This document shows, in pieces, positions 30,721 through 47,024 of a stretch of 64,000 nt of DNA (position 1 is its first letter; the number at the start of each line of letters is the position of its first letter). The position numbers and the translations under genes were made by a program. This DNA is from Calditrichales bacterium MX18-03 (lineage in GTDB: Bacteria; Bacillota; Clostridia; Lutisporales; Lutisporaceae): NCBI GenBank assembly GCA_021083345.1, contig JAJGRE010000001.1, positions 1,240,001-1,304,000 on the forward strand, given 5' to 3'. Below the pieces are notes generated by a model. That model saw only the letters and a program-made list of their open reading frames with translations, had not been told where the DNA came from and searched no databases.

Positions 30721-30749
30721 GTAATATCACTGTATGCGAGGTGACACTC

Positions 30750-31193
30750 ATGGCATTATCAACCAGAGAATTGTTGGCACGCCTTATTAAATGTGAGGCA
30801 GGCGGTGAAGGAGACAACGGCATGAAGGCCGTTGCAACTGTTGTGATGAACCGGGTACATGTGCCTAATGGCGAATATCAGCGGATAGGTCAAGGCGATC
30901 TTCGGAAGGTACTTTATCAGAGAGGTCAATTTGATTGCATTTCCGAAACCTTGGTAGGAAGGTACAACCCCCAGAATATTTATAATATGCGGCCCGACCA
31001 GATTCATTACGATATTGCAGACTGGGCTTTGTCCGGAAACAAGATACTGACGATAGGATATGCCCTCTGGTATTTCAATCCATTCCAGCCTGTCTGCCCG
31101 CAGACCTTCCCCCGCAACGGCACCGGCAGATTTGCAAACAAAATTGCATTGCACTGCTTCTATAACCCTACCAGGGCTTACTATCTGACATAA
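30750..31193 (+). CDS. cwlJ: Spore cortex-lytic hydrolase, CwlJ/SleB family
   Basis: 147 aa with one Hydrolase_2 domain and neither signal peptide nor peptidoglycan-binding domain, the layout of CwlJ rather than SleB. Signatures: LLARLIKCEAGGEGDNGMKA with the catalytic Glu, VATVVMNRVHVPNGEYQRIG, FDCISE and ALWYFNPFQPVCPQTFP. It degrades cortex peptidoglycan during germination. ATG 30750 follows AGGTGA by five nt; a GTG at 30741 lies inside that site. It is followed after 46 nt by gerQ, whose product is needed to place CwlJ in the spore, which supports the assignment and a sporulating host. Confidence 0.92.
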   Translation: MALSTRELLARLIKCEAGGEGDNGMKAVATVVMNRVHVPNGEYQRIGQGDLRKVLYQRGQFDCISETLVGRYNPQNIYNMRPDQIHYDIADWALSGNKILTIGYALWYFNPFQPVCPQTFPRNGTGRFANKIALHCFYNPTRAYYLT

Positions 31194-31239: not shown

Positions 31240-31701
31240 ATGTACTGCAACAACCCCTTCAACAGTTGTCAAACGAATGCGAGGCAGCAGTTTCCCGGTA
31301 CAGCACATCAAGGTATGATGAATCAGGTACCTACTCAGGAGATACCGATGCAGCAAATGCCGATGATGCAAATGCCGATGATGCAAATGCCGATGATGCA
31401 GCAAATACCCATGATGCAGACGCCGATGATGCAGGTTCCCCTTACCGGTGCGGCACCTGTCGACTTTGACATGCTGCCTCAAACACCGGTCATGGACATT
31501 GAATTCACGCAAGGGTATCTTAGGACCCAGATCGGCAGACGGGTTAAAGTAGAATTTCTTATTGGCACCAGTATGTTGGTAGACAGGGAAGGCATCCTGA
31601 CAGATGTAGGCATCAGCTATATCATTATCAACGAAACAGAAACCGATGATTTGCTCCTATGCGATATTTACTCCATCAAGTTTGTAAAGTTTTACTATTA
31701 G
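31240..31701 (+). CDS. gerQ: Spore coat protein GerQ
   Basis: 153 aa. The C-terminal ~65 residues (EFTQGYLRTQIGRRVKVEFL ... LLLCDIYSIKFVKFYY) match the conserved GerQ domain. The N-terminal ~85 residues are low-complexity, with Met/Pro/Gln repeats (MQMPM units) instead of the Gln/Pro-rich N-terminus of Bacillus GerQ. GerQ is a coat protein cross-linked by transglutaminase in Bacillus and required for CwlJ localisation. Ribosome-binding site AAAGGAG. Second gene of the cwlJ-gerQ unit. Confidence 0.9.
   Translation: MYCNNPFNSCQTNARQQFPGTAHQGMMNQVPTQEIPMQQMPMMQMPMMQMPMMQQIPMMQTPMMQVPLTGAAPVDFDMLPQTPVMDIEFTQGYLRTQIGRRVKVEFLIGTSMLVDREGILTDVGISYIIINETETDDLLLCDIYSIKFVKFYY
31354..31434 (+). repeat. 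15-bp coding repeats in gerQ
   Basis: CAAATGCCGATGATG occurs three times in a row (31354-31398), then as decayed copies to 31434. Each unit encodes QMPMM. Because the unit is a multiple of three, copy number can change without a frameshift. Confidence 0.85.
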
Positions 31702-37828: not shown

Positions 37829-38815
37829 ATGGCGGCAAAGATCGGTATTCCCAGGGGAATGTATTATTACAAACATTTCCCTTTCACAAAAACCTTTCTG
37901 ACGGAAATCGGCGCAGAAATCGTTCCTTCTCCGGAGACAACCAAGGAGATTCTGGACAAGGGCGTTCAATATTGTATTGACGATGCATGCCTGCCCGTAA
38001 AGGTATACCACGGGCACGCCCATTACCTGCGGGATAAAGCAGATTTTCTTTTGATCCCGCGTTTGACCAGCATCTCCAAGGGCGAGTACATCTGCCCGAA
38101 ATTCGGAGGTCTTCCGGAAATGGTGAAATATTCCGTACCGCAGCTCCCCCGTATTCTTGATGTTGAGGTCAACATGCTCCGGAGCAGATGGGGACTAGAT
38201 AAGGCGCTCTATCGCCTTGCATACGGGCTAGGTATAAAAAACCCTTTCAGGATACGCCAGGCAGCAGGCAAGGCGCTGTCTGCGCATCGCAGCTTCAAAG
38301 GCAGAGTCCTGGAAGGGCATTCACCTAATGATGTGATCGACGGTAAACCGCCTAAATATATCAACGGCAGGGACACGGTGGGTTTGGTTGCACATCCTTA
38401 CCTGCTTTACGATTCCTATATTAATATGAATTTGTTGAATAAGCTGACAGAAAGGGGCATCCGGTATGTGACGACCGAAATGGTGGACCCCCATATCATT
38501 GAGCAGCGCTGCATGGAACTGCCCAAAAGAATGTTTTGGAGCAGCGGAAAAGAATTGATCGGGAGCGCCTTGTACCTGATGGACAACAGCCGGATTGACG
38601 GTGTGCTTTTTCTAACGGCTTTTTCTTGCGGAATCGATTCCCTGGTTGGAGAATTCATTGAGAAATATGCCAGAAGAGACTACCGTAAGCCTTTTATGGT
38701 GCTCAATATCGATGAGCACACAGGGGATGCCGGCTTTAATACCCGCATTGAAGCCTTTAAAGATTTGCTGAACGGGAGGTGCAAAGATGCGACTGACCTA
38801 TCCTCACATGGGTGA
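37829..38815 (+). CDS. DUF2229/HgdB-like protein, small subunit type, copy 1
   Basis: 328 aa of the 2-hydroxyacyl-CoA dehydratase/CoA-activase-associated group (COG3580/3581-like). N-terminus KIGIPRGMYYYKHFPFTKTF, then CIDDACLPVKVYHGH, GEYICPKFGGLPEMVKYS and FSCGIDSLVGEF; the ending NIDEHTGDAGFNTRIEAF is shared with all four relatives in this window. Conserved cysteines suggest iron-sulfur cluster binding. The substrate is unknown. GAGGAGG before the ATG. The next gene starts within its last 29 nt. Its closest relative here is the gene at 58413-59402. No ATPase activase accompanies this pair. Confidence 0.85.
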   Translation: MAAKIGIPRGMYYYKHFPFTKTFLTEIGAEIVPSPETTKEILDKGVQYCIDDACLPVKVYHGHAHYLRDKADFLLIPRLTSISKGEYICPKFGGLPEMVKYSVPQLPRILDVEVNMLRSRWGLDKALYRLAYGLGIKNPFRIRQAAGKALSAHRSFKGRVLEGHSPNDVIDGKPPKYINGRDTVGLVAHPYLLYDSYINMNLLNKLTERGIRYVTTEMVDPHIIEQRCMELPKRMFWSSGKELIGSALYLMDNSRIDGVLFLTAFSCGIDSLVGEFIEKYARRDYRKPFMVLNIDEHTGDAGFNTRIEAFKDLLNGRCKDATDLSSHG

Positions 38816-39878
38816 AGCCTACATTGCCATTAAGAGCCTTTTTGACGATATCGGCGTAGAAAGCACCATTCCTTCTTTTACGACAGATACCACACTGCGG
38901 CTGGGCGCTGCACTATCACCGGAAACCATATGCCTGCCGTTCAAGATCATGCTTGGAAATTATATAAACAGCATTAAAGCAGGAGCGGACACCGTCCTGA
39001 TCACCGGAAGCTGCGGTCCCTGCCGCTACGGCTATTATGGCCCCATCCAGCAGCAGATCCTTAGGGAAGCTGGTTATCGGGATATTGACATCATTGTGCT
39101 GGATCCGCCCAGAGAAGGCTACCGGGATTTTTATGCTGCCGTGAAGAAACTATCCCACCGAGGCAGGACGCATCCGCTTCAAGCGGTGCTGACGGCTTAT
39201 AGAGTCAGCTGTGCCGTAGATGCGCTGAATGACCTGCTGTATCATATACGGCCCCGAGCCGTCAATAAAGCGGAAGTAAGGGCTATCCTGCATCGCTTCA
39301 AGGAGCAGGTGACGCAAGCATGCGGCTCTGCAGAGATCCTGAAAATGGTGGAAGAAACCGGCAATGCGCTGAAGCAGGTTGAAATCAACAATGAAATCAA
39401 ACCGCTGAAGATCGGAATCATCGGTGAGATATACACCATCATCGAGCCCTTTACCAATCTGAATATTGAAGAGAGGCTTGGAGAAATGGGAATGGAAGTG
39501 CACCGTTCCATGACTGTAAGGAGCTGGATACAGAATACCCTGATCAAGCCCATGACAGGCCGCAAGAGCTACGTGCTTGAGAAAAAGCTCTCAAAGCCCT
39601 ATCTTCCCGCCATGATTGGGGGGCATGCGCAGCAATGCATCGGCCATGCAGTACAATATGCCCAAATGGGCTACGACGGCCTCATCCAGATCTATCCCAT
39701 GACCTGCATGCCGGAAATCGTATCCCGGTCCATCCTGCCTCAGGTTGAAAAGGACTATGGCATCCCCATCCTCTATCTTATTGTGGATGAGCAGACCGGA
39801 ATGGCAGGTTATGTGACCCGCATCGAGGCTTTTGTGGATTGTGTTGCACGGCGAAAAAAAGAAATGCTGCACGAATAA
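38787..39878 (+). CDS. DUF2229/HgdB-like protein, large subunit type, copy 1
   Basis: 363 aa. Starts MRLTYPHMGEAYIAIKSLF; ETICLPFKIMLGNYINSIKA and TGSCGPCRYGYYGPIQQQIL carry the likely cluster cysteines; KIGIIGEIYTIIEPFTNLNI, GGHAQQCIGHAV and MTCMPEIVSRSI follow, and the end is IVDEQTGMAGYVTRIEAFVD. Paralogue of the gene at 57209-58405. The ATG lies seven nt after GGGAGG inside the preceding gene (29-nt overlap), so the two products are probably made in step and form a complex. Function unknown; low-potential electron transfer to a dehydratase-type substrate is the family's theme. Confidence 0.85.
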   Translation: MRLTYPHMGEAYIAIKSLFDDIGVESTIPSFTTDTTLRLGAALSPETICLPFKIMLGNYINSIKAGADTVLITGSCGPCRYGYYGPIQQQILREAGYRDIDIIVLDPPREGYRDFYAAVKKLSHRGRTHPLQAVLTAYRVSCAVDALNDLLYHIRPRAVNKAEVRAILHRFKEQVTQACGSAEILKMVEETGNALKQVEINNEIKPLKIGIIGEIYTIIEPFTNLNIEERLGEMGMEVHRSMTVRSWIQNTLIKPMTGRKSYVLEKKLSKPYLPAMIGGHAQQCIGHAVQYAQMGYDGLIQIYPMTCMPEIVSRSILPQVEKDYGIPILYLIVDEQTGMAGYVTRIEAFVDCVARRKKEMLHE

Positions 39879-39900
39879 AGCGGCCTATACCGCTTTATTC
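39873..39900. terminator. Terminator overlapping both stop codons
   Basis: GAATAAAGCGG and CCGCTTTATTC form an 11-bp stem with a six-base loop. The TAA stops of the convergent genes (39876-39878 on plus; 39897-39895 on minus) both lie inside the stem. Confidence 0.8.
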
Positions 39901-40599
39901 TTCGCTTTCGATGTCATCCGCATCTCTTAGTACTTGCTTATAGGGCGAGTATTCTACCAGTTCGTCGACGTTTTTGAGCGCCCTGCGCCAAAGATAGAGC
40001 ATATAAGGGACGAAAAGGACCAGCATGTAGAACCGCTGCGAGAATAATATAAAATCATAAAAGCCGTGCAGCAGGATCGGTACAAGGAAGGCTAGCCGGG
40101 TATACTTCGTTCTGAGAGCGGGACGCACAAACTTGGCGATGCCCAGGTAATAGCCCATTGTCACGCCGAAAAGGGCGTGGGCCGGCACAGCTGTCAAGGA
40201 ACGGATCAAAGCCGTGTTGAACCCGCTGCCTAAGACATAACCTACATTTTCTACCGTGGCAAAGCCCAGGGAAATGAAAACGCAGTAGACGATGCCGTCG
40301 TACATCTCATCGAACTCCCTGTCCTTCCAGATGTACATAAAAAAAAGGAGATATTTGAAGGCTTCTTCCACCAGTCCGGCTACCACAAAGGCTGTGTACC
40401 CGGCGGCCAGCAAGCTGCTGTCGGCCATATCAAACAGGTTAAGGCGCATCTCGACAATCAGCACCGGTATCACCGCAAGGCTGCCTGCCATGAAGGCCTT
40501 CAGCAGCATCCGCCTGGGTTCCTTTTCGTATCTGTCCCTCATGTAGAAGTAATACAACAGCGCTATGGAAGGCGCAATGGCTGCTGATAACAAAAGCAT
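39895..40599 (-). CDS. PrsW family intramembrane glutamic protease
   Basis: 234 aa membrane protein with about seven or eight segments. PrsW motifs in order: AGLVEEAFKYLLFFMYI (EExxK), FISLGFATVENVGYVLGSGF (FAxxEN), VPAHALFGVTMGYYLG (HAxxG) and LLHGFYDFILF (HGxYD). PrsW in B. subtilis cleaves the anti-sigma factor RsiW; no RsiW/SigW pair is nearby, so the substrate is unknown. Last gene of the run glgP - GH13 - methyltransferase - PrsW (20 nt after the methyltransferase). GGAGGGG before the ATG. Confidence 0.92.
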   Translation of the reverse strand: MLLLSAAIAPSIALLYYFYMRDRYEKEPRRMLLKAFMAGSLAVIPVLIVEMRLNLFDMADSSLLAAGYTAFVVAGLVEEAFKYLLFFMYIWKDREFDEMYDGIVYCVFISLGFATVENVGYVLGSGFNTALIRSLTAVPAHALFGVTMGYYLGIAKFVRPALRTKYTRLAFLVPILLHGFYDFILFSQRFYMLVLFVPYMLYLWRRALKNVDELVEYSPYKQVLRDADDIESEE

Positions 40600-40619
40600 C
40601 GGATCCCCTCCAAAAAGAT

Positions 40620-42401
40620 TTATCTTTTTATCATTTTTTCAATCAGTTCTATTTGTCGGTCATTGAGGTCATACAACCTATAGAGTTCCCTATCAATGCA
40701 CTCAATAATCGCTTCTCGCTCCAGCAGAGCGTCTGCCTCGCAAAGCCTCTGCGCGAGGGCAGCTATCGGTTCGTCCATGTGATCTGCTTTCAGCTTAAGC
40801 CTCAGTACCGTATTCGGGTAATAATCAAACAGGTTATCGCTGATTTTCTTTGCATAGCATTTGAAATAGTATTCAAACAGTTTGGAATTCAATAGCGCCG
40901 CCGCATACGGCAGTGTCAGCTGCCAGGGCGCTTTTCGCTTCAGCCTGAGGCTATAGACATCTGCACTGCAATAATTGCCTTCTGTATCAATGGCAAACCG
41001 GCTGCTGGCCGATTTGTAAGGATAAACCAGCTTCTCGCCCTCAAAAACCGCTTTGTTTCTCCCCCATTGCAGCTGATACCATTTCCGCACACCGTTTCTG
41101 CATTCACGACGCTGCTCCAGACGCTCCCTGTACCGCCCAATAAATGTGATGGCGTTGGGGCAATCCGTTTCATTTTCTATTTCATCCGCATAGATCAGAA
41201 GATAGTCCGAAGGCTTGACAAAATAACGTTCAACACTGCTGTTCTTGATCCAGGGCTTCAGCAAACGGGGTTCGATCCCCTCCCGCTCTGCCGTTGCCGT
41301 ATCCAGAATAAATGCCTTGTCGCAGCCGGTTATGACACCCTGATAGCTGTCAAAAAGCTGTCCCAGGGTGTGGGTTCCTGCTGCTTCAAGCTTCAAGAAG
41401 ATCTCATGCTTTTCCGGCGGCAGCAGCAGCCACCCCTCATCCTTCAGCATATGCTCCCGTATCTGAAACTGATCGAAATTCTCACTGGAAAACAGCCCTG
41501 TATCCTTTGCTGCATCGGCCTCTCCCTGGTATCTGAATACTTCTCCGCTCTGAAGCCGGCTGTTCTTCTGCAAGGTGATGATGCAGGAAGCGACGCCTGC
41601 ATCCTTAAAAACCGGATATCCGAAAAAATCCACAATCTCAAGGATTGTACTGTTGCGCTTCACAAACCGTCTCAGCCCCTCTGCCGACGGCCCCTCCAGG
41701 AAGTATCTGGATGTTATGAAGGACAGGGTTCCCCCATCCACCAGTAGATCCAGCCCTCTTTTAAAAAAGCAGAAGGATATATCGGACTTGTCCTTATATA
41801 TACCTGGGTAATGCTGCTGCAACGTCTTTTTGTATGTACCCGAAACCTGCTTATGTCCCACATAAGGCGGATTGCCGATAATATAATGGTAATTGTTTTG
41901 CCAGATCCCGTTTTCGCCGGTATTTAAAAAAGCCAGGAGATTGTCTGCTTCAGCAGAAGAAACCAGGCTGTCGCAGCACGCCAGATTTGTCCGGCAGGCG
42001 CAGCCTGCTGCTTTGGCCAGTGCTGCTCCGGCTAAGCTTATAGCTGCCTCATCGATATCTGCACCCCAAAGGTTGTTTTCCACAATAAAACGTCCCAGCC
42101 TGTCCCCCGTCAGCAGCGGCTCCAGCTCTGTGTGGCGCTTCAATATGTCCTCCATGCAGGCCTCAAACCGCCTCTTCAGAACCTCAAAGGCTTTAAGCAG
42201 AAAATGCCCGGTGCCGCATGCGGGATCCAGGATTCTGATGTAGGGATCCTTTATTACATCCGCATTACCCAATAGTTTTTCAGTCATATGTTCCACCACC
42301 ACCTGGGGCGTATAGAACACGCCTTTGCTCTTCCTGGCCTGCTGGCCTTTTGAGCTCTCAACCGTCTTGCTCATCTCCAGATAGCTTTTGTCGAAGCCCA
42401 T
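40620..42401 (-). CDS. Orphan N6-adenine DNA methyltransferase, CamA-like
   Basis: 593 aa, a type II gamma-class adenine methyltransferase with a C-terminal TaqI-like target recognition domain. SAM motif I LDPACGTGHFLLKAFEV, motif II-type GADIDEAAISLAG and catalytic motif IV YIIGNPPYVGHKQ lie in the N-terminal half. The C-terminal half has YQGVITGCDKAFILDT and RRECRNGVRKWYQLQWGR. These segments closely match what I remember of Clostridioides difficile CamA (577 aa, CAAAAA methylation, affects sporulation); this is from memory and not aligned. The ATG at 42401 has GAGGTG; upstream codons of the open frame belong to the GH13 gene's end. No endonuclease gene is adjacent. Gaps of 22 and 20 nt to GH13 and PrsW suggest one operon. 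Confidence 0.88.
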   Translation of the reverse strand: MGFDKSYLEMSKTVESSKGQQARKSKGVFYTPQVVVEHMTEKLLGNADVIKDPYIRILDPACGTGHFLLKAFEVLKRRFEACMEDILKRHTELEPLLTGDRLGRFIVENNLWGADIDEAAISLAGAALAKAAGCACRTNLACCDSLVSSAEADNLLAFLNTGENGIWQNNYHYIIGNPPYVGHKQVSGTYKKTLQQHYPGIYKDKSDISFCFFKRGLDLLVDGGTLSFITSRYFLEGPSAEGLRRFVKRNSTILEIVDFFGYPVFKDAGVASCIITLQKNSRLQSGEVFRYQGEADAAKDTGLFSSENFDQFQIREHMLKDEGWLLLPPEKHEIFLKLEAAGTHTLGQLFDSYQGVITGCDKAFILDTATAEREGIEPRLLKPWIKNSSVERYFVKPSDYLLIYADEIENETDCPNAITFIGRYRERLEQRRECRNGVRKWYQLQWGRNKAVFEGEKLVYPYKSASSRFAIDTEGNYCSADVYSLRLKRKAPWQLTLPYAAALLNSKLFEYYFKCYAKKISDNLFDYYPNTVLRLKLKADHMDEPIAALAQRLCEADALLEREAIIECIDRELYRLYDLNDRQIELIEKMIKR

Positions 42402-42423
42402 TTCACACCTCAAATCTCCGATC

Positions 42424-44382
42424 CTATTCCATTCGATATAAGGCGCCCTCCAGCGGTTCCAGGCTGATCTCAACTGCCTGATCCAAAATAGGGATATGCT
42501 GCGCATCAGCCAAGAGGTTCCTCATGCCGTACACCTTCAAGCCCGGCAAATCGATGCGGATGCCGTGCCGTTTGTCCTGGCTACGGTTTATCAGGATCAG
42601 GAATGTACCGTTATCCGCTGTATTCCCAAAAACATCTTGCTGATTCACGATCCTTCTCAGATAACCCAGCACATCTCCTCTTGAAAAAACCGGCTGCCAG
42701 CTCCCTACCGACAAGGCATCATGCCGCTTGCGGGTGGCAATGAGCAGCCGATACCAGGCCAATAAATCCTTGTCTTCCGCTCCCCAAGGGTAGGTGCTCC
42801 GGTTGAGGGGGTCCCTGTAACCTTCCACACCTGCCTCATCTCCGTAATAGACACAAGGGACGCCGGGAAAAGTCATCTGTATCAGCACCGCCAGCTTCAG
42901 CCGGGCAACAGCCAGGTTCCGCTGCGAATCCGGCAGCACATATTGCTCCTTCCGGCGCTGCGTCATGGCACTCTCATCCGGTGCTTCACCCAGTAGTGTC
43001 AATACCCTTGGTACGTCATGGCTCCCAATCAAGTTCATGCTGCTGTAAAAACTGTAGGGGGGATAGTTCTCATATAAACTGGCTAAAGCCGTTTCTGTAA
43101 AAGCGGCATCATGTTTGTACAGAAAAAAATCCAGAAGGATGGACCGGAAAGGATAGTTCATGACCGAGTCCAGGCCGCTTCCCTGGAGATAACTGCGGCG
43201 CTTTCCGTAGCTGATCTTGTTGGAAGCGTCTTCCCACACCTCACCGATGAGGACGGATTCGGGATCGGTCTCCTTCATGGCTTGCCTGACAAGGGTGATA
43301 AACGCATCCGGCAGTTCATCCGCCACATCCAGCCGCCAGCCCTTGGCACCCTGCTTCATCCAATACTTGATAACGCTTTCCTCTCCGGTTATAACGAAGT
43401 CAATGTAGCTTGGGTTCATTTCCTCGACATTGGGCAGCGTATTGATACCCCACCAACATTCATAGCTGTCCGGGTTGCCGCAGAAACGGTACCAGCCGTA
43501 GTAGGGTGAACTCTGGGACTGATAGGCCCCAATGCCCGGATAATTGCCGTAACGGTTAAAGTAAATACTGTCACTGCCCGTATGGCTGAAGACACCATCC
43601 AGAATAACAGAGATCCCCATCTCCCGTGCTTTGGCACACAAGGTGCCGAACAACGCAATATCTCCAAACATAGCGTCAATTTTTTTGTAGTCGCCTGTGT
43701 CGTACTTATGGTTGCTGGGTGCTTCAAAAATAGGGTTGAGATACAAGACATCCACACCCAATTCCTTCAGATAGGGCAGCTTGCTGATGACACCCTGCAG
43801 GTTCCCGCCGAAAAAATCCCATCGGAGGATGCCCCCGGTTTCCGGATCCTTCAAATACACCGGCTTATCTGCCCAATTCCCGTATATGAAGCTGTTCTTC
43901 TTGGGATTCAGCACCTTGCCGTCATCACTGCCGTTGCAGAACCGGTCTACAAAAATCTGGTACATGACCGCTTTCTTGTACCAGACCGGTGTGACTGCCT
44001 TTTCATCATATACCGTTATCTGATAAAAAGGCGGCAATGTCCGGGAGAGGACCCCGACCCCGCCAAAGCGGTTTGAGTTATTTCCGTAATAGTACAGCTG
44101 GCCGGCTGCATGGATCTCGAAGCAATACCACAGCAGTCCGGGCTCTTCAGTCACCCGGGTCTCAGCCAGATACACGGAATACCCGCCTGCCTGCTTTTCC
44201 TGCTGCATGGGCAGCTTATTTACAGGCCCCCCTTCAACCTGAAGCAAAAGCCACACCTGATCGATAGGATCATCGGTCAGGCTGGCAAGCTTCAGCTGAA
44301 TTTCTGTACCGCAGCACACGGCACCAAAGGGCCTTCTGTAAACTTCGCGATGCGAGTCATGTATGATCTGCAAATCTGACAT
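42424..44382 (-). CDS. GH13 alpha-glycosidase (neopullulanase/maltodextrinase type)
   Basis: 652 aa. An N-terminal beta-sandwich (1-120) precedes the TIM-barrel. GH13 conserved regions: I DGVFSHTG, II GWRLDVADE (nucleophile Asp), III LIGEVWED (acid/base Glu), IV LIGSHDVPR (third Asp). It lacks a signal peptide, so it acts in the cytoplasm on maltodextrins or glycogen branches. The N-terminal domain and sequence LNPIFEAPSNHKYDTGDYKK resemble cyclomaltodextrinase/neopullulanase. It starts 23 nt after glgP and shares its transcript, fitting glycogen breakdown. Confidence 0.93.
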   Translation of the reverse strand: MSDLQIIHDSHREVYRRPFGAVCCGTEIQLKLASLTDDPIDQVWLLLQVEGGPVNKLPMQQEKQAGGYSVYLAETRVTEEPGLLWYCFEIHAAGQLYYYGNNSNRFGGVGVLSRTLPPFYQITVYDEKAVTPVWYKKAVMYQIFVDRFCNGSDDGKVLNPKKNSFIYGNWADKPVYLKDPETGGILRWDFFGGNLQGVISKLPYLKELGVDVLYLNPIFEAPSNHKYDTGDYKKIDAMFGDIALFGTLCAKAREMGISVILDGVFSHTGSDSIYFNRYGNYPGIGAYQSQSSPYYGWYRFCGNPDSYECWWGINTLPNVEEMNPSYIDFVITGEESVIKYWMKQGAKGWRLDVADELPDAFITLVRQAMKETDPESVLIGEVWEDASNKISYGKRRSYLQGSGLDSVMNYPFRSILLDFFLYKHDAAFTETALASLYENYPPYSFYSSMNLIGSHDVPRVLTLLGEAPDESAMTQRRKEQYVLPDSQRNLAVARLKLAVLIQMTFPGVPCVYYGDEAGVEGYRDPLNRSTYPWGAEDKDLLAWYRLLIATRKRHDALSVGSWQPVFSRGDVLGYLRRIVNQQDVFGNTADNGTFLILINRSQDKRHGIRIDLPGLKVYGMRNLLADAQHIPILDQAVEISLEPLEGALYRME

Positions 44383-44405
44383 CCTATCACCTGCTTGCGC
44401 TGTTT

Positions 44406-46838
44406 TTATTCTTTCACCATAATGCTTTGAGCTCCCCAGATGCCGCTTGCATATTCCTCTATGGTGCGGTCACTGGAGAAACGGCCGGAATGGGCTATAT
44501 TGTTGATACTCATCTGCTGCCATTTGGCAGGCTGTCTGTATAACTGATCCACCCGCTGATGCGCCTTGATATAATCGTCAAAATCCTTCAATACGAAATA
44601 TTCATCATTATGCATCAGTAAGGCATTGTAAATACTCATGAATTCCACATGGCCTACGCGGAAAAAGCCGTTAACAAGCTGCTCCAATATGGTCTTGAGC
44701 CGGGGATCGTTGTTGTAGAATTCCATTGAGTTGTAGCCGCCGTTGCGGTAATATTCCAGCACCTCCCGCTCGGTCATGCCGAATATGATGATATTGTCGT
44801 CGCCTACCTCTTCCCGTATCTCAATATTGGCACCATCCAACGTGGCGACGGTAATAGCCCCGTTCATCATGAGCTTCATGTTTCCTGTACCGGAAGCCTC
44901 CTTGGTGGTGGTGGAAATCTGCTCGCTGATGTCGGCAGCAGGTATGATCCTTTCCGCCAGGGATACCTTGTAGTCTTCCATAAAGACAATCTTTATCTTA
45001 TCCTTTATGACAGGATCATGGTTCACTTTTTCCGCCAGTGTATTGATCAGCTTGATCTGCTGCTTCGCCAGATAGTAGCCCGGTGCTGCCTTGGCACCAA
45101 ATATGAATGTTCTGGGTATGACATCCAAATCCGGGTCTTCCCGCAAACGGTTATATAAATCCATGATGTGGAATACGTTCAGAATCTGCCGTTTGTACGC
45201 GTGCATACGTTTGACCTGAACGTCGAAAATCGATTCCGGATTGACGGTGATATTATATTTATCCTTAATGATGCCGGCCAGCTGCCGCTTATTGTCCAGC
45301 TTGATTTTCCTTGTGATTTCCTGAAAAGCCGGATCGTTTTCAAATTTCAATAGCTTCTTAAGCTCGGAAGGATGGCGCATCCAAGCCGTTCCAATGGCGT
45401 CCCTTATGGCACAGGTCAACCCCGGATTGGCTTTGAGAAGCCATCTCCTGTGGGTGATGCCGTTGGTTTTGTTGTTGAACTTATACGGATAGAAGTTGTA
45501 GAAATTGGCCAGTTCCTGCTTCTTCAGTATCTCGGTGTGGATCTTTGCAACACCATTGACGCTGTGGCTCCCCACAATTGCCAGGTTAGCCATTTTGACA
45601 TAACCGTCGGCCAGTATCGCCATTGCCGCAATCCGTCCCCAATCTGCCGGATACCGGTTCCACAACTCCCTGCAGAACCTTTCGTTGATTTCCTGTACGA
45701 TCATATAAATACGCGGCAGCAGTTCCTTGAAGAGGTCGATAGGCCATTTTTCAAGGGCTTCCGACATAATGGTATGATTGGTGTAGGAAATGGTATTGGT
45801 GGTGATTTTCCAGGCTTCGTCCCACTCCAGACCTTCCTGGTCTATCAGGATCCTCATAAGCTCCGGAACAGCGACTGCAGGGTGGGTATCGTTGATATGC
45901 ACGGCTACTTTTTCATCAAAATCCCGGATGTCATGATTGCCCGACTTAAACCTTTTGACGATGCTCTGAAGTCCTGCAGACACGAAGAAATACTGCTGCT
46001 TGAGCCTCAAGCGCCGTCCTTCAGCATAGGAATCATCGGGATACAGTACCTGGGAAATCGACTCAACGGAGTACTTGTATTCCACTGCCTTCATATAATC
46101 TCCCCGGCTGAAGGAGGTCAGGTCGAAGTCCTTGTTGGGCGCTTCGGCACTCCAAAGCCGGAGGGTATTGACCGTGTCATTTTTATAGCCTATGATGGGC
46201 GTATCATAGGGAACGGCCAGTACGGTTTCATAATCCTCATGATGAACCTTCAGCTTGTCGTCCGTCCGCTCAACCCACACATTCCCGCCGAAGCGCACCT
46301 CTACAGCCTTATCCGCCTTCCGGATCTCCCACACATTGCCTTCCCGCAGCCAGTTTTCGGGCAGCTCAACCTGGTAACCGTTTACGATCTTCTGCTCAAA
46401 AAGACCGTATTTGTACCGAATACCGCAGCCGTGCCCTGGAATGCCCAGTGATGCCATGGAATCCAGAAAACATGCCGCCAGTCTGCCCAATCCGCCGTTG
46501 CCAAGTCCGGCATCCGGCTCAGCGGCTTTCAGCTCCTTAAGGGACATGCCCAATTCGCTGAGGACCTCTTCACAAACCTGCTCCAGACCCGTGTTAACGA
46601 GATTATTGCCGAGGAGCCTTCCTAGCAGAAACTCTATGGAGAAATAGTACACCTGCTTGGAACCTTTTTTTAGATAGGCCTCATTCGTTTTGACCCAGTT
46701 CTCAGCGGCGTAATCCCGGATCAGGCTTCCCAGTGCCGAGTATTTATCTGAGACGGATGCCTGCTCAAAACTCCTGGCATGCATCGTCATGAGCTTTCTC
46801 AAATAGTCTTCCTTGAATTTCTCTTTACTTATCACCAT
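44406..46838 (-). CDS. glgP: Glycogen phosphorylase (long form, GT35)
   Basis: 810 aa, normal length. It phosphorolyses glycogen to glucose-1-phosphate. Signatures: YYFSIEFLLGRLLGNNLVNT, EPDAGLGNGGLGRLAACFLD, VHINDTHPAVAVPELMRILI, and EASGTGNMKLMMNGAITVAT with the PLP lysine. The ATG at 46838 has GGAGG five nt upstream; the frame is open to 46916 without a site. First gene of the run with the GH13 enzyme, methyltransferase and PrsW. An inverted repeat at 46921-46938 lies about 85 bp upstream and could be an operator. Confidence 0.96.
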   Translation of the reverse strand: MVISKEKFKEDYLRKLMTMHARSFEQASVSDKYSALGSLIRDYAAENWVKTNEAYLKKGSKQVYYFSIEFLLGRLLGNNLVNTGLEQVCEEVLSELGMSLKELKAAEPDAGLGNGGLGRLAACFLDSMASLGIPGHGCGIRYKYGLFEQKIVNGYQVELPENWLREGNVWEIRKADKAVEVRFGGNVWVERTDDKLKVHHEDYETVLAVPYDTPIIGYKNDTVNTLRLWSAEAPNKDFDLTSFSRGDYMKAVEYKYSVESISQVLYPDDSYAEGRRLRLKQQYFFVSAGLQSIVKRFKSGNHDIRDFDEKVAVHINDTHPAVAVPELMRILIDQEGLEWDEAWKITTNTISYTNHTIMSEALEKWPIDLFKELLPRIYMIVQEINERFCRELWNRYPADWGRIAAMAILADGYVKMANLAIVGSHSVNGVAKIHTEILKKQELANFYNFYPYKFNNKTNGITHRRWLLKANPGLTCAIRDAIGTAWMRHPSELKKLLKFENDPAFQEITRKIKLDNKRQLAGIIKDKYNITVNPESIFDVQVKRMHAYKRQILNVFHIMDLYNRLREDPDLDVIPRTFIFGAKAAPGYYLAKQQIKLINTLAEKVNHDPVIKDKIKIVFMEDYKVSLAERIIPAADISEQISTTTKEASGTGNMKLMMNGAITVATLDGANIEIREEVGDDNIIIFGMTEREVLEYYRNGGYNSMEFYNNDPRLKTILEQLVNGFFRVGHVEFMSIYNALLMHNDEYFVLKDFDDYIKAHQRVDQLYRQPAKWQQMSINNIAHSGRFSSDRTIEEYASGIWGAQSIMVKE

Positions 46839-46920
46839 AAATGCCTCCACAAAAAGATTTGTATGACGGCCTAAAAAAATGCAACTTGCCGTACGGTCTG
46901 TTTTCGTCCCATACAAGAAC

Positions 46921-47006: not shown

Positions 47007-47024
47007 AGCGCCGTTGCCGGCGCT
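47007..47024 (-). terminator. Terminator of glgC-glgD-glgA
   Basis: AGCGCC-N6-GGCGCT stem; on the minus strand TTTTTT follows six bases after the stem. It separates the synthetic genes from glgP. Confidence 0.65.

Follow-up and report, generated by a model that had tools for sequence, protein, structure and literature searches.

N6-methyladenine (m6A) in the motif CAAAAA has been published for Clostridioides difficile, where the effect of the methyltransferase CamA is mediated by one CAAAAA site at spoIIE (PMC13395437). The residues with which CamA touches the DNA bases have been named in its structure paper (PMC8187626). The enzyme has been described as C. difficile specific and has for that reason been put forward as a selective drug target (PMC8187626, PMC13395437). 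In addition, m6A in CAAAAAR has been published for Acetobacterium woodii, Eubacterium limosum, Clostridium pasteurianum, C. ljungdahlii, C. acetobutylicum, and others. The A. woodii enzyme (Awo_c14460) was cloned and assigned CAAAAA(m6A)R (PMC6700114), and its published identity to the E. limosum enzyme is 48.9%. C. carboxidivorans reads the looser CRAAAAR; therefore, small specificity shifts occur.

Here we analyzed a clostridial DNA stretch of 64,000 nucleotides (the window, to which all positions refer), in which a sequence-only reading had noticed a CamA-like methyltransferase gene within a run of glycogen genes. The locus was compared by whole-genome searches of 22 genomes from the host’s bacterial family and of 393 sampled genomes of the class Clostridia.

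A CamA-family enzyme and its DNA-reading residues

The methyltransferase gene (40620-42401, minus strand) encodes 593 amino acids with an Eco57I/N6_Mtase domain and a TaqI_C recognition domain (Pfam/NCBIfam), the catalytic part spanning approximately residues 1 to 328 and the recognition domain approximately residues 329 to 593. Motif I reads DPACGTG, and motif IV is the NPPY at residues 177 to 180. The best match of the protein is the solved CamA (8cxz/7lni; E value, 4e-129), followed by M.BseCI (6e-21). Identity to CamA is 41% in the catalytic domain and 41% in the recognition domain by profile alignment and 39% by BLAST; a recognition domain of low similarity, which had been named beforehand as speaking against CamA likeness, was thus not found. 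The segments GADIDE, IIGNPPYVGHK, ITGCDKAFIL, and RRECRNGVRKWYQLQWGR, noted at the outset as CamA-like, are indeed present in the translation and align with it. A structure model, built with AlphaFold from a 17-sequence alignment (mean pLDDT, 87), gave query-normalized TM scores of 0.85 to 0.88 against most CamA-DNA complexes (lowest, 0.82), compared to 0.75 against M.BseCI (PDB accession no. 7QW5), with which the protein shares the overall fold but only about 20% identity.

Fold, domain order, and catalytic and SAM-binding motifs are therefore those of CamA (PDB accession no. 7LNI and 7LT5). In the MAFFT alignment, from which the placement of motif III is taken (the HMMER alignment shifts this motif at an insertion), Asp60, Asp114, Asp149, Phe200, Phe253, and the NPPY of CamA are all identical in the window protein. 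Differences are found at Tyr30 in the cage around the target adenine, which is replaced by Phe, and at Ser62, replaced by Ala, both as in many relatives, and at the phosphate-contacting Lys173, replaced by Gln; positions 30 and 173 are both variable within the CamA family.

Fourteen of the 15 base-contacting residues in CamA are identical in the window protein, and the fifteenth, Ile517, is replaced by Leu, whereas M.BseCI, taken as a control, keeps none of the 12 compared. In a family alignment of 70 rows reaching down to about 30% identity, Lys172, Gln346, Ile349, Arg425, Trp439, Arg441, Lys456, Ser472, and Ala473 are invariant, although the median column of the recognition domain is only 54% conserved. 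Gln438 and Tyr521 deviate in one row each, and the row counted for Tyr521 ends before that position. While a search with short peptide patterns could favor contact residues, whole-protein searches could not, and these give the same invariance. Judged by sequence and structure model, the window methyltransferase is a member of the CamA family and a close structural relative of CamA, as first suspected.

Strict one-to-one orthology with C. difficile CamA is not indicated, however. The window enzyme belongs to a clade of 11 rows, recovered as one clade at 100 in a quick, unrooted tree, that lies apart from the CamA clade. No shared neighbors of the two genes were seen at the compared loci: the window gene adjoins a gene for a PrsW-family protease, whereas an EAL/GGDEF protein is encoded nearby in L109.

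The predicted motif and the absence of a restriction partner nearby

To which motif the window enzyme binds may be judged from the A. woodii enzyme. One sampled genome (G104) holds exactly 5576 CAAAAAR sites, the figure published for A. woodii DSM 1030, and L132, the sole family member there, shares 48.6% identity with the member in genome G349, close to the published value for A. woodii and E. limosum. L132 is thus almost certainly the published CAAAAAR enzyme. It keeps 13 of the 15 CamA base-contact residues, including every one that is invariant in the family, but its identity to the window protein is only 34%. It also carries a long N-terminal extension and a Gly at the position of Ser514, and it is followed by a gene for a RarA/MgsA-type ATPase. 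Since an enzyme of such low identity with the same core contact residues almost certainly has CAAAAAR specificity, CAAAAA is a well-supported prediction for the window enzyme from its sequence. A purine requirement at position 7 may go either way, because residues 514 and 517 vary; at residue 514, C. difficile and almost the whole window clade have Ser, and most other members have Gly.

Within 464 kb of the host genome, we found no trace of selection on CAAAAA in counts or intergenic placement: the word occurs at its expected frequency, and its intergenic excess is similar to that of permuted words. This result counts against the reading as a CAAAAA methyltransferase, as do the Phe, Gln, and Leu at positions 30, 173, and 517 and the CRAAAAR of C. 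carboxidivorans. Near the methyltransferase gene, CAAAAA occurs 5′ of the phosphorylase gene glgP (46850, 46974, and 46994) and 5′ of the PrsW gene (40611). Because these sites fall within or next to a terminator T tract and Shine-Dalgarno leaders, they were not counted as regulatory. The leaders of the PrsW gene and glgP are nearly alike, reading AAATCTTTTTG(TG)GAGG (40600-40617 and 46839-46856), and in both a predicted CAAAAA site on the opposite strand abuts the Shine-Dalgarno sequence.

No restriction-enzyme domain was detected among the genes scanned at 28.8 to 57.3 kb, in line with the initial impression of an orphan enzyme and with the lack of a restriction partner for CamA. The distant similarity of the protein to PglX and type IIG enzymes could nevertheless point to a methyltransferase of restriction-modification or BREX type that is solitary or decayed and acts in defense. 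We regard this as highly improbable: the score against the curated BREX PglX model is 110 bits, far below the cutoff of 500, the protein holds no nuclease domain, neither BREX partners nor a restriction gene appeared among the genes scanned, and, unlike mobile defense genes, the gene keeps its chromosomal position within several bacterial families. Elsewhere, the host genome contains at least two other reading frames (659 and 1055 amino acids) that distantly resemble adenine methyltransferases, with 26 to 31% identity (G000:C7:859236-859934 [L002] and G000:C10:82055-82909 [L003 and L004]), which are possibly restriction-modification or BREX-like.

A constant PrsW neighbor and variable glycogen genes

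The methyltransferase gene is the third of four genes on the minus strand, preceded by glgP for a glycogen/alpha-glucan phosphorylase (44406-46838) and a gene for a GH13 alpha-amylase-type enzyme (42424-44382), both assigned by Pfam/NCBIfam, and followed by the gene for a PrsW-family intramembrane protease (39895-40599), whose NCBIfam score of 224.9 lies just under the cutoff of 225. The gaps along this run are 23, 22, and 20 nucleotides, as noticed at the outset, and a Shine-Dalgarno-like sequence stands at each of the four starts. A terminator-like hairpin in the interval between glgA and glgP (47007-47024, minus strand) probably bounds the transcription unit upstream, and another lies at the convergent end after the PrsW gene (39873-39900); over the region, such hairpins are in no excess (9 matches versus 7.5 in shuffled sequences). 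This layout makes a four-gene transcription unit plausible, as well as the proposed co-transcription of the protease gene with the methyltransferase gene. Convergent with the PrsW gene are two overlapping DUF2229/HGD-D genes (2-hydroxyglutaryl-CoA dehydratase related; 37829-39878), a pair that keeps its place beside PrsW across much of the host’s bacterial family.

The gene-order comparison that had been suggested as a check separated the two kinds of neighbors: the link to PrsW proved constant, and the link to glgP and GH13 did not. In each of the 10 window-clade loci whose contig extends far enough, PrsW directly follows the methyltransferase gene, which it overlaps or nearly overlaps in several. 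In genome G012 a methyltransferase fragment precedes PrsW, and in G018 each of the two genes is at a contig end, in an orientation that would fit the pair. The glgP-GH13 pair directly precedes the methyltransferase gene in 5 of the 11 clade loci (the window, L045, L047, L049, and L052) but is absent there in the other six (L046, L048, L050, L051, L053, and L054), which nevertheless have several flanking genes in common with the window. Two more distant genera of the family, g6 and g7, have PrsW among flanking genes like those of the window, but neither the methyltransferase gene nor the glycogen genes lie there; their different CamA-type enzyme is encoded elsewhere in the genome and falls on the same side of the tree as CamA. 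Because of this arrangement in g6 and g7, PrsW looks ancestral at the locus. In one clade the methyltransferase gene lies directly upstream of it, and the glycogen genes would have come or gone independently, with the direction of gain and loss deduced from this comparison.

These observations bear on the idea that a CamA enzyme is embedded in a glycogen-degradation operon and that its marking, perhaps with sporulation, is coupled to glycogen use. The short gaps, the lack of a convincing terminator between the genes, and the gene order that four other clade loci have in common with the window would fit such a coupling. Given, however, that the glycogen genes are missing from more than half of the clade loci while PrsW is the constant neighbor, that no GlgP was found in the methyltransferase carrier G018 at the threshold used, and that genera g2 and g4 encode a less similar GlgP elsewhere in the genome, we consider it very unlikely. 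Rather, the glycogen genes would have been added to this transcription unit in particular lineages and would be no part of the methyltransferase function.

Sporulation and the spread of the CamA family

That the host is a spore former, as noted at the outset, is supported by a full-length SpoIIE (E value, 2.5e-208). Of the gene pair read as cwlJ-gerQ, 30741-31190 encodes a CwlJ-like Hydrolase_2 protein, but 31240-31698 matched no family. As in C. difficile, the main role of the enzyme might be to favor sporulation by activating sigma-F, which would agree with the presence of SpoIIE, with the single spoIIE site that mediates the effect there, and with the relatives of the gene that lie upstream of spoIIAA-spoIIAB-sigF in Clostridiaceae. 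Unlike in C. difficile, though, no CAAAAA was found in the 350 bp upstream of the host spoIIE, and the host gene is not near the spoIIA genes. Furthermore, carriers of a CamA-family gene are not richer in SpoIIE, which was found in 31 of 46 carriers and 254 of 347 noncarriers of the class sample (counts that ignore kinship) and was missing at an E value of 1e-60 in 15 of the 46 carriers. Neither the promoter site nor gene content thus links the host enzyme to sporulation, and a carry-over of the C. difficile mechanism is not supported; we judge such a main role unlikely. The spoIIE upstream regions of L082 to L098, from much of the host’s bacterial family, share a recurrent TGACAAATATTTC...TGTTAAAAT-like arrangement with several TTGTC words, perhaps Spo0A boxes and promoter. 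The spoIIE-linked promotion of sporulation is a property of C. difficile CamA and not of the family.

The location beside the sigma-F operon is nonetheless recurrent elsewhere. In 18 of 71 loci, from Clostridiaceae and a few others and in at least two separate parts of the tree, a CamA-family gene lies upstream of spoIIAA-spoIIAB-sigF (L008, L014, L016 to L019, L022, L023, L062, L111, L112, L115 to L119, L121, and L125), often followed by spoVA genes, and one literature search found no paper noting this adjacency. It provides a lead toward an old sporulation connection and says nothing of the window host. Apparent sigma-factor neighbors at the Tissierella loci L007 and L015 turned out to be other genes, one of them for a Nif3-like protein. 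It is tempting to speculate that CAAAAA methylation is an old epigenetic mark of many Clostridia with unchanging DNA-reading residues, that its gene took up an early, fixed position next to the sigma-F (spoIIA) operon, and that in the lineage of the window it formed with PrsW a two-gene module linking chromosomal methylation to membrane or sigma-factor signaling, a history that we regard as possible but rather doubtful.

What we consider highly probable is a CamA-family orphan CAAAAA methyltransferase that sets a genome-wide epigenetic mark, encoded by a PrsW-linked gene of one clade to which the glycogen genes are incidental. The enzyme would belong to the gamma class of N6-adenine DNA methyltransferases. 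Its target is very likely the final adenine of CAAAAA, at sites throughout the host chromosome, and it would act with no partner restriction enzyme. Its gene appears to be maintained in a single clade of the host’s bacterial family, directly ahead of the PrsW gene and probably co-transcribed with it, and the most likely role of the mark would be to shift the expression of some genes with CAAAAA in their control regions.

Relatives of the enzyme were found in 17 of the 22 genomes of the host’s bacterial family, with a contig-end fragment in an eighteenth, and in 46 of the 393 sampled Clostridia genomes (about one in nine), sporulating or not; the named loci include Clostridium, Tissierella, Alkalibaculum, and Paraclostridium. 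Since the family is present in so many sampled genomes, these searches indicate that CamA as a family is not C. difficile specific but widespread across many Clostridia. Other neighborhoods recur as well. At Acetobacterium/Eubacterium-type loci (L020, L063, L120, L123, L124, L126 to L134, and L140), a RarA/MgsA-type AAA+ ATPase gene comes next, followed in most by genes for a PreP-like peptidase and then a D-Ala-D-Ala carboxypeptidase, and at L009 to L012 a MutS domain V protein is encoded close upstream (the domain is shown for L009).

A methyltransferase that has been called C. difficile specific is thus one of a family that is spread widely among Clostridia and in which the DNA-reading residues do not vary; the motif of this family was already recorded in scattered biotechnology methylomes. 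CamA inhibitors may therefore also hit other clostridial family members, and the purpose of the CAAAAA mark becomes a comparative question, one that can be asked in nonpathogenic, tractable species such as A. woodii.
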